Assembly: GCA_023622055.1 (NCBI GenBank)
Contig: JAMNZY010000105.1
Coordinates: forward strand, 1 to 35,761
Direction of reading: 5' to 3'
Origin: Bacillota bacterium
GTDB lineage: Bacteria; Bacillota; Thermosediminibacteria; Thermosediminibacterales; Tepidanaerobacteraceae
DNA: 35,761 nucleotides
The translations under genes and the position numbers were made by a program. This document shows positions 19,267-35,761 of this stretch, piece by piece. Within the stretch, counting starts at the first letter, position 1. Each line of letters begins with the position of its first letter. The notes beneath the pieces are model-generated. The model searched no databases. It worked only from the letters and a program-made list of their open reading frames with translations, and was not told where the DNA came from.

Positions 19267-19296
19267 GTATAAAAACCTCTCCCTATGGCAAAACTT
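19267..19296 (+). promoter_or_regulatory. Candidate sigma-F-type promoter of sigG
   Basis: GTATA (19267-19271), 15-nt spacer, GGCAAAACTT (19287-19296), against GYATA-N15/16-GGNNANAHTR. Confidence 0.65.
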
Positions 19297-19329
19297 TAAA
19301 TGAAAACTTGGGAAGACAGGGGGAGGTTT
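19273..19329 (+). promoter_or_regulatory. SD-sequestering hairpin in the sigE-sigG intergenic region
   Basis: AAACCTCTCCCT (19273-19284) pairs with AGGGGGAGGTTT (19318-19329): 12 bp with one G.U; the right arm is the sigG SD. Confidence 0.75.
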
Positions 19330-19331
19330 CT

Positions 19332-20105
19332 TTGATTGTAAATAAAGTTGAAATATGTGGAGTAAATACATCTAAACTCCCAGTGCTTTCCAATGCCAAA
19401 ATGCGAGAACTTTTTTTACAAGTTAAAAAGGGAGACAAAGAAGCACGGGAAAAACTAATAAATGGCAATCTTAGGCTCGTATTGAGTGTAATCCAAAGGT
19501 TTAACAATAGAGGAGAATATGTAGATGACCTGTTTCAAGTAGGCTGCATAGGGCTTATGAAAGCTATAGATAACTTTGATTTAAGCCAAAATGTGAAGTT
19601 TTCAACATATGCTGTGCCTATGATAATAGGTGAAATTAGAAGATATCTTAGAGACAACAATCAAATTAGAGTTAGCAGATCTTTAAGAGATATTGCATAT
19701 AAAGCTCTTCAAGTGAGAGATAGTTTAATTACAAAAAATTCTAGAGAGCCATCTATAAGCGAGGTAGCTAAAGAAATGAATATGCCTAGTGAAGAGATAG
19801 TTTTCGCATTGGATGCTATTCAAGAACCCATTTCACTTTTTGAACCCATTTACCATGATGATGGAGATCCTATTTTTGTAATGGACCAAATTAGTGATGA
19901 AAAAAACAAGGATGACCAATGGCTCCAAGGTATTTCAATTAAAGAAGCAATGCAAAAATTAGGTGAAAGAGAGAAGAAGATTTTGAATTTGAGATTTTTT
20001 GAAGGAAAAACTCAAATGGAAGTTGCTCAAGAGATCGGTATATCACAAGCACAAGTTTCACGACTTGAAAAGGCAGCACTTAAACACATGAGAAAATATA
20101 TTTAA
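19332..20105 (+). CDS. sigG: Forespore sigma factor sigma-G
   Basis: 'NKVEICGVNTSKLPVLSN', 'NGNLRLVLSVIQRFNNRGEYVDDLFQVGCIGLMKAIDNFDLS' closely resemble sigma-G. Start inferred as TTG 19332 (track 19308). Confidence 0.96.
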   Translation: MIVNKVEICGVNTSKLPVLSNAKMRELFLQVKKGDKEAREKLINGNLRLVLSVIQRFNNRGEYVDDLFQVGCIGLMKAIDNFDLSQNVKFSTYAVPMIIGEIRRYLRDNNQIRVSRSLRDIAYKALQVRDSLITKNSREPSISEVAKEMNMPSEEIVFALDAIQEPISLFEPIYHDDGDPIFVMDQISDEKNKDDQWLQGISIKEAMQKLGEREKKILNLRFFEGKTQMEVAQEIGISQAQVSRLEKAALKHMRKYI

Positions 20106-33663: not shown

Positions 33664-34617
33664 ATGCTAACTGACGTAAAAGGGATTCAAGTGGGCCATG
33701 CCCAAAATTATGAGGCCGGCACAGGTTGTACAGTCATTTTATGCAAAGATGGTGCAGTAGCAGGAGTAGATGTGCGGGGAGGAGCTCCTGGAACCAGGGA
33801 AACAGATTTGCTGTCACCAGAGAATTTAATAGAAAAAGTCCACGCCATTTACTTAGGCGGTGGCAGTGCCTTTGGTTTAGACGGAGCATCAGGGGTTATG
33901 CATTTTTTAGAGGAAAACAAGATAGGCTTTGATGTGGGAGTGACTAAAGTACCTATAGTTCCTGCAGCTGTAATTTTTGATTTGAATGTGGGGGATTATC
34001 GAATAAGACCGGATTTTAAGATGGGATATGAAGCCTGCCTCAATGCTAAAAGTGTGGACAATGCCTCTGGAAACGTAGGTGCTGGGACGGGAGCTACTGT
34101 TGGCAAATACTTGGGCGACGAGTTTTCTATGAAGGGTGGCCTAGGCACATATTCCATTAGAATTGGAGATTTAGTAGTAGCTGCTTTGGTAGTTGTAAAT
34201 TGCCTAGGAGATGTGGTGGATCCTGCTACTGGCGAAATTTTAGCAGGAGCTTTAAACGAAGGGAAGACAGGATTTGCAAATACCATAGAGACAATAAAGA
34301 AAGGCTTTATGTCACAAAATATTTTTTCTGGCAATACTACTATTGGAGTAGTAGCGACAAATGCTCTCTTATCAAAGGCTCACGCAAAAAAGGTTGCATC
34401 AATGGCCCACAACGGCTATGCGAGAGCTATTAGGCCAGTTCATACAATGGCAGATGGAGACACAATATTTTGTCTTTCCTTAGGAGAGGTTAAAGCTGAT
34501 GTTTCTATTGTTGGGGTCTTAGCAGCTGAAGTAGTGGCAAAGGCGATAGTTAATGCTGTAAAAAGTGCTGAACCTCTATACGGCAAAATGGCATACAAAT
34601 CATTTGCCATCAGTTGA
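33664..34617 (+). CDS. P1 family peptidase (DmpA/NylC-like Ntn-hydrolase fold)
   Basis: 'DVRGGAPGTRETDLL', 'IYLGGGSAFGLDGASGVM', 'NTTIGVVATNALLSKA', 'ARAIRPVHTMADGDTIF'. Confidence 0.92.
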   Translation: MLTDVKGIQVGHAQNYEAGTGCTVILCKDGAVAGVDVRGGAPGTRETDLLSPENLIEKVHAIYLGGGSAFGLDGASGVMHFLEENKIGFDVGVTKVPIVPAAVIFDLNVGDYRIRPDFKMGYEACLNAKSVDNASGNVGAGTGATVGKYLGDEFSMKGGLGTYSIRIGDLVVAALVVVNCLGDVVDPATGEILAGALNEGKTGFANTIETIKKGFMSQNIFSGNTTIGVVATNALLSKAHAKKVASMAHNGYARAIRPVHTMADGDTIFCLSLGEVKADVSIVGVLAAEVVAKAIVNAVKSAEPLYGKMAYKSFAIS

Positions 34618-34649: not shown

Positions 34650-34678
34650 TCACATTACCCCCTTTTGCTGCATAGAAT
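34650..34678 (+). promoter_or_regulatory. Candidate sigma-E-type promoter of yunB
   Basis: TCACATT (34650-34656), 14-nt spacer, CATAGAAT (34671-34678), against KMATATT-N14-CATACAHT. Confidence 0.6.
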
Positions 34679-34699
34679 AGACAGGAAGGGGGTTTTTTT
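34658..34699 (+). terminator. Terminator-like hairpin downstream of the P1 peptidase gene, whose right arm is the yunB SD
   Basis: CCCCCTT (34658-34664) / AAGGGGG (34686-34692) followed by T7 directly before ATG 34700. Confidence 0.55.
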
Positions 34700-35347
34700 A
34701 TGTTTAGAGTCCGGCGGCTTTTAAGGACTTTAAAGCCTATAACCCTTAGACGTTTTCTCTTTTTTCTTGTCATAATAATGTTTTACTTGATTTTTAATTA
34801 TGTTGAAAACAGTTTGACGCCAAATATAATGGCTATAGCTGAAGCTCAAGCGAAAAACATAGCTGTAGAGGCTATTAATAAAACAGTAAAAGAAAAAATA
34901 GCAAAAGATGTGCAGTATAAAGATTTAATTTCAATACATAAAGATACTAGTGGGCAGATAACATTAGTTCAAATAAATACAATAAAAATAAATCAATTGG
35001 AAGCTGATACAATATTAGAAGTGATAAATGTTTTACGTGAGGCAACAATGGAGGGTGTTTCACTGCCTATAGGAGCTGCCACAGGAAGCAAGCTGTTTTC
35101 AAGGTACGGCCCAAAGATTAAAGTGCCATTGATACCCGCCGGAACAGCCCAAGTAAATACAATTGAAGCTTTTGAAGAAGCCGGAATAAACCAAACTCGC
35201 CACAGAATTTTATTTCAAATTATAGCTGATATACGAATAGTGCTGCCTTATATAGATTCAGTAATAACTGTTAAAACAGATGTTCCGTTGGCGGAAACCA
35301 TAATAATAGGAGATGTCCCGGGAGCACTACTCAATTTTAGATATTAA
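34700..35347 (+). CDS. yunB: Sporulation protein YunB
   Basis: N-terminal TM, 'AEAQAKNIAVEAINKTV', 'LPIGAATGSKLFSRYGPKIKVPLIPAGTAQVNTIEAFEEAGINQTRHRI' as in YunB. Confidence 0.93.
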   Translation: MFRVRRLLRTLKPITLRRFLFFLVIIMFYLIFNYVENSLTPNIMAIAEAQAKNIAVEAINKTVKEKIAKDVQYKDLISIHKDTSGQITLVQINTIKINQLEADTILEVINVLREATMEGVSLPIGAATGSKLFSRYGPKIKVPLIPAGTAQVNTIEAFEEAGINQTRHRILFQIIADIRIVLPYIDSVITVKTDVPLAETIIIGDVPGALLNFRY

Positions 35348-35497: not shown

Positions 35498-35526
35498 TTG
35501 ACACGGTGAAAACAATCTGGTATAAT
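35498..35526 (+). promoter_or_regulatory. rrn promoter P2 (perfect sigma-A consensus)
   Basis: TTGACA (35498-35503), 17-nt spacer, TATAAT (35521-35526). Confidence 0.9.
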
Positions 35527-35550
35527 TGCATACTGTCAGACGAAAAAGTC

Positions 35551-35579
35551 TTGACAACAAAAATAAAATGTTGTAGAAT
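35551..35579 (+). promoter_or_regulatory. rrn promoter P3 (near-consensus)
   Basis: TTGACA (35551-35556), 17-nt spacer, TAGAAT (35574-35579). Confidence 0.85.
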
Positions 35580-35599
35580 GAAAGTCCAATCTGATTAAG

Positions 35600-35620
35600 T
35601 GGTCTTTGAAAACTGAACAG
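35600..35620 (+). promoter_or_regulatory. rRNA leader boxA-like antitermination element
   Basis: TGGTCTTTGAAAACTGAACAG resembles the Firmicute rrn leader boxA core (TCTTTGAAAACTGAAC). Confidence 0.75.
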
Positions 35621-35706
35621 TGTTATGCCTGTAAGGTTAAGGCATATAAAGATTTTTGAAATAAAGCCATGATAATCAAACTCGAAGAGTTTTAGTTTTT
35701 TAGAAT

Positions 35707-35761
35707 TAACATGAGAGTTTGATCCTGGCTCAGGACGAACGCTGGCGGCGTGCCTAACACA
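35707..35761 (+). rRNA. rrs: 16S ribosomal RNA, 5' end (truncated by window edge)
   Basis: AGAGTTTGATCCTGGCTCAG (27F primer site) at 35714, followed by GACGAACGCTGGCGGCGTGCCTAACACA. 5' end estimated by offset from E. coli position 8. Confidence 0.97.

Follow-up and report, generated by a model that had tools for sequence, protein, structure and literature searches.

The 50 bases preceding the sporulation gene yunB in the window (the whole stretch of DNA analysed, 35,761 nt) contained a mother-cell-type promoter, a hairpin and the ribosome-binding site of the gene, all overlapping one another. We consider it rather probable, at about 0.7, that this element is a self-insulating promoter: RNA read through from the gene upstream would be stopped or would have its Shine–Dalgarno (SD) sequence hidden, while RNA initiated at the promoter of yunB itself would lack the left arm of the hairpin. 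RNA polymerase arriving from the upstream peptidase gene would copy both arms and the hairpin would form, leading either to termination at the tract of T residues or to burial of the yunB SD; vegetative read-through would yield no YunB. Initiation at the mother-cell promoter (about 34685) would produce a leader of ~15 nt without the left arm, leaving the ribosome site free. One stretch of ~50 bases would thus combine the stop signal of the neighbour with the promoter and the ribosome site of yunB.

The elements of the yunB region described in this paragraph are located on the forward strand. The yunB gene (34700–35347) encoded a sporulation protein of 215 aa (PF09560, E = 7.5e-30). A gap of 82 bases separated its ATG codon (34700) from the stop codon of a co-directional open reading frame (33664–34617), encoding a DmpA/P1-like peptidase of family S58 (PF03576, E = 2e-45); this gene is the likely source of read-through transcripts entering yunB. 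The -35 element TCACATT (34650–34656) was of the mother-cell type, with C at the position discriminating between sigma-E and sigma-K and with TCAC kept in the family. It was followed by a promoter spacer of 14 bases (34657–34670), containing the left arm of the hairpin, and by the -10 element CATAGAAT (34671–34678), located in the hairpin loop; its CATA was invariant in order-level alignments. The left arm, CCCCCTT (34658–34664), was extended by positions 34657, 34665 and 34668–34670. The right arm, CAGGAAGGGGGT (34682–34693), with the core AAGGGGG (34686–34692) as the partner of CCCCCTT, included the yunB SD GGAAGGGGG (34684–34692), conserved among relatives as GGAGGGG or GGAAGGGGG. Between the SD and the start codon, a T7 tract (34693–34699) formed a terminator-like tail; tracts of T5–T7 were found in most Tepidanaerobacteraceae and Thermosediminibacteraceae. 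The preliminary description of this DNA had placed CCCCCTT in the promoter spacer and had read AAGGGGG as the yunB SD, followed by T7 and ATG, in base-for-base agreement with our reading. From the promoter geometry, yunB transcription is expected to start at about 34685–34687.

The predicted fold was larger than the two 7-base arms described earlier. It comprised 9 pairs (34657–34665 with 34685–34693; A-CCCCC-UUU as the left strand), a 2-nt bulge and 3 inner CUG/CAG pairs (34668–34670 with 34682–34684). The loop, which holds the -10 element, was 11 nt long past the inner pairs and 21 nt between the main arms. The hairpin was moderately unusual, with an energy of -16.2 kcal/mol (z = -2.8 against shuffles), and the SD, forming one strand of this stable structure, was paired with a probability of 0.99. 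When only the left side was shuffled, the stem spanning the -10 element gave p = 0.005. Similar SD hairpins were found in 3 of 44 other genes with a co-directional neighbour at 30–150 bp (window and sampled loci), sigG among them. Direct reading agreed with the earlier count for the promoter: TCACATT-N14-CATAGAAT (34650–34678) matches KMATATT-N14-CATACAHT at 13 of 15 positions. The forward strand of the window contained five matches of this quality, where 2.6 would be expected; the match alone is at chance level, and its weight comes from conservation.

The assignment of this promoter to sigma-E, proposed in the preliminary description, was not supported as written. Sigma-E and sigma-K share a common -10 element, while their -35 elements differ by T versus C, read by Gln or Arg, respectively, in region 4.2 (PMC3789822). 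A -10 element CATAnnnT, about 14 bases from the -35 element, was present at yunB (CATAGAAT) and conserved, but it is shared by sigma-E and sigma-K promoters (PMC3789822). The CD3569 gene, the yabG homolog of Clostridioides difficile, is treated in the section of the same paper on the sigma-K regulon (PMC3789822). The discriminating -35 base of yunB in the window was C (ACA), not the T of sigma-E promoters (ATA); among 108 yunB orthologs, C was found in 70% and T in 7%. Known sigma-E genes of the same genomes carried T: ylbJ (GAATATT), yabP (ACATATT) and spoIID (TCATATT). The yabG promoter, TCACATC-N14-CATATTAT, was nearly identical to that of yunB and had the same C; yabG is a sigma-K gene in Bacillus subtilis. 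SigE of the window contained the motif ISQSY and SigK of the same genome (G000) contained ISRSY, i.e., the C at the discriminating position was accompanied by arginine at the matching residue of SigK. The dpaA gene was also considered as a sigma-K control, but its family had no member above the cut-off in these genomes. The yunB promoter is therefore of the mother-cell type, probably sigma-K-like or dual. Sigma-E or dual use at yunB is possible because C. difficile yunB (CD0782) was lower in a sigE mutant and was reported to be sigma-E-dependent (PMC3789822).

Conservation of the element was analyzed in 80 named loci and a further phylum-wide set, giving 172 distinct yunB upstream regions that were scored. 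Among named relatives, the genome of the window grouped with Tepidanaerobacter. Open frames of 100 codons or more were taken as neighbour genes, and start codons were picked by SD strength. Each region was scored by the energy of the stem enclosing the -10 element; this score replaced the expected number of pairs spanning the -10 element, which was too noisy. Shuffle and swap controls were included to allow for the influence of G+C content on these energies. Many contigs break near yunB because it is the last gene ahead of an apparent rRNA operon. In the window, two strong sigma-70 promoters, TTGACA-17-TATAAT and TTGACA-17-TAGAAT, were found at 35498–35761, with the apparent start of a 16S rRNA gene 3' of both, at the end of the window.

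The SD, the T tract and CATA were mostly kept in Tepidanaerobacteraceae and Thermosediminibacteraceae, as was a complementary left arm, while the sequence of the arms varied: CCCCCTT/AAGGGGG in the window, CCCCTCCT/AGGAGGGG in Thermosediminibacteraceae and AACCACCTCTTAATA/TATTAAGAGGTGGTT in locus L189. A MAFFT alignment of the arms across families was too gappy for pair counting, and covariation was therefore tested by arm swapping. Among orthologs with co-directional neighbours, exchanging the left arms between unlike sequences weakened the pairing by a mean of 4.7 kcal/mol (p = 8.6e-8, n = 47); with divergent neighbours, no significant difference was detected (p = 0.075, n = 57). The overlap of promoter, hairpin and SD described earlier for the window is thus conserved, and its two arms change together.

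The strength of the hairpin, whose right arm was usually the SD, depended on the direction of the neighbouring gene. The mean stem energy was -13.6 kcal/mol for co-directional neighbours at up to 150 bp (n = 70), -8.4 kcal/mol for co-directional neighbours further than 150 bp away (n = 28), and -6.2 kcal/mol for divergent neighbours (n = 74). The difference between the first and the last groups was highly significant (Mann–Whitney U test, p = 1.3e-12; p = 2e-6 in the second, separate test set alone). Phylogenetic regression (PGLS) on the YunB tree put the orientation effect at -6.5 ± 1.0 kcal/mol (p = 1.6e-9, with lambda fitted as 0.25); when strict Brownian motion was assumed, it was marginal (p = 0.04 for energy and 0.08 for z). 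Phylogenetically independent pairs numbered 12 only, with 4.4 for and 0.5 against (median p = 0.125). The co-directional neighbours were of at least six kinds: S58 peptidase, TyrRS, chemotaxis receptor, M24 peptidase, aminotransferase and gamma-glutamyltranspeptidase. Where a divergent neighbour was identified, it encoded a class A penicillin-binding protein or GluRS. Two members of the family (G006 and G010; loci L009 and L010) were exceptions, retaining the SD hairpin despite a divergent neighbour; their nearest upstream gene, divergent, encoded a penicillin-binding protein, and no tRNA was located in between. Inheritance or unseen transcription may account for this retention. According to the preliminary description, transcripts from the peptidase gene would be terminated or would have the SD blocked. 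The hairpin tracked the presumed incoming transcription as a read-through block would; both termination and SD blocking would fit the window.

The element could also be no more than an intrinsic terminator ending the peptidase gene, crowded against yunB by lack of space and having no role in blocking translation. Its GC-rich stem (9 + 3 pairs) is followed immediately by T7, and no other terminator-like hairpin was found in the 82-base gap between the two genes; a simple terminator scan misses the yunB hairpin itself because it does not allow loops of more than 8 nt. Co-directional neighbours with a terminator of their own were accompanied by weaker stems (-8.9 versus -13.6 kcal/mol, p = 1.4e-4), and the orientation effect was not significant in these orthologs. 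Within the 65 bases preceding yunB in L029 and L195, a T-tailed hairpin enclosed the -10 element in its loop but ended before the SD, which it did not use; judged by their sequences, these two loci are a pure terminator version, with the promoter inside a plain terminator. Both findings would also be in line with the self-insulating promoter. Nevertheless, over half of the hairpin cases lacked a T-rich tail, which argues against termination as the sole role, and the same design was found at yabP and sigG, both of which lie behind sporulation genes. We regard a plain terminator as unlikely.

The T-rich tail was found in 23 of 53 hairpin-bearing orthologs versus 9 of 57 divergent ones without the hairpin (p = 0.0017). 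Several observations speak against the self-insulating promoter: the two relatives with a hairpin despite a divergent neighbour, the marginal orientation effect under the Brownian model, the small number of independent pairs, T tails in fewer than half of the hairpin cases and in these nine without a hairpin, and a loop (11 or 21 nt) that is long for an intrinsic terminator, about 3–8 nt being usual. In the family of the window, the T5–T7 tract makes termination at this site likely. Since under half of the hairpin cases have a T-rich tail, some lineages may be able to block translation only.

A conditional switch, in which the hairpin is melted or bypassed (by temperature or ribosome traffic) and read-through also feeds yunB, would be consistent with the moderate stem energies and with the thermophily of several hosts, as suggested by organism names. 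However, no conserved sensor sequence was present, an Rfam search of the window returned no match, and the arms were free to vary, which makes such a switch very improbable. We give slightly less credit still to a DNA-level operator, that is, an inverted repeat overlapping the promoter and bound by a regulator of mother-cell genes. Such an operator would fit the near-perfect palindromes that surround the -10 element in L046, L189 and L209, but the arm sequences were wholly different between lineages, G–T pairs, which break a DNA palindrome, were common in the stems, and the repeat depended on the direction of the neighbouring gene. Accidental pairing of a pyrimidine-rich spacer with the adjacent purine-rich SD, which the chance-level promoter match and a C-run also following the yabG -35 element in the family might suggest, can practically be dismissed in view of the left-side shuffles, the swap and orientation tests, and the near absence of the hairpin in ylbJ and yqfC.

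The layout of the self-insulating promoter was also found at other sporulation genes. In the window, sigG (start at 19332) was located behind spoIIGA and sigE, and its upstream element (19267–19334, forward strand) included a promoter of the sigma-F/G type (GTATA-N15-GGCAAAACTT), a left arm CCTCTCCCT in the spacer, the -10 element in the loop, and an SD AGGGGGAGG serving as the right arm, followed by a TTG start codon. This hairpin was predicted in 19 of 19 related genomes. The yabP gene, with a sigma-E-type -35 element, had the same hairpin design in 15 of 18 relatives. At the yabP loci of Tepidanaerobacteraceae and Thermosediminibacteraceae (L301, L289, L297, L296 and others), the arms AAACCCTCCC...GGGAGGGTTT were found in the ~80 bases before the start codon, with a mother-cell-type -10 element in the loop, the SD as the right arm and often T residues after it. 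The control genes mostly lacked a hairpin (3 of 19 for ylbJ and 2 of 19 for yqfC), and spoIID was mixed (8 of 19, without a conserved arm). We also considered yabG as a further case; in the family of the window (L410–L424), a C6 run was located in the spacer just after TCACAT and the SD was a run of G5–G6, but the fold was mostly no better than shuffles, and yabG was not counted. Another SD hairpin, CCTTTT...AGGGGGAAGG (-15.7 kcal/mol), was observed upstream of 18532 in the window, at sigE, which lies 29 bases behind spoIIGA.

On balance, we lean slightly towards the view that the layout with the -10 element in the loop and the SD as the 3' arm, whether T-tailed or not, serves endospore-forming bacteria as a recurrent insulator. 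It would be gained or strengthened behind a gene reading towards it, lost or weak next to a divergent neighbour or one with a terminator of its own, and would serve the promoters of several sporulation sigma factors (yunB, yabP and sigG). If so, developmental genes would be insulated from housekeeping read-through by a terminator, a promoter and a ribosome site that overlap within ~50 bp, and the layout would track gene order through evolution. It would also provide a simple, testable rule for placing start sites and terminators when sporulating Firmicutes are annotated; a hairpin-embedded promoter would usually be dismissed there.

We failed to find in the open-access literature an earlier report of such an element for yunB or yabP. 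An ordinary intrinsic terminator has, like the yunB element, a GC-rich stem followed by T7; unlike it, the yunB element holds the -10 element of the next gene in its loop and uses the SD of that gene as its 3' arm. Within the genus, the elements of sigG and yabP share with yunB the left arm in the spacer, the -10 element in the loop and the SD as the right arm, while their promoter classes (sigma-F/G-type and with a sigma-E-type -35 element, respectively) are different.

In B. subtilis, a hairpin upstream of sigG (spoIIIG) was proposed to block translation of spoIIGA-sigE read-through RNA; transcripts starting at PsigG are unable to form it (Masuda 1988 and Sun 1991, as described in PMC5942855). 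Like this gene, yunB is a sporulation gene behind an earlier-expressed gene, with a hairpin predicted to be excluded from the RNA of its own promoter. The B. subtilis hairpin is described as having at least 20 pairs and is combined with a forespore promoter, whereas at yunB the promoter is a mother-cell one, the stem is shorter and is followed by a T7 tail, and a peptidase gene lies upstream. In phage T4, as described in PMC3014915 and PMC2988022, the SD or start codon of e, soc, 49 and I-TevI is hidden in long read-through transcripts of the early or middle period. The late promoters of e and I-TevI are placed within the sequence that specifies the 5' strand of the hairpin; late transcripts do not contain this strand and are translated. 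In contrast to yunB, these are phage genes with the late sigma factor gp55 and a block of translation only; the passages considered here report no terminator tail for the T4 hairpins. At yunB, a conserved -10 element lies in the loop, 3' of the left arm, and its transcript would lack the 5' strand; longer transcripts may enter from the co-directional S58 peptidase gene, 82 bases upstream and lacking a terminator of its own. The yunB element would work like the known device of sigG and T4; what is new is that it belongs to a mother-cell gene, often has a terminator tail and is tied to gene order. The mechanism of phage T4 and B. subtilis sigG would thereby be extended to conserved mother-cell genes.
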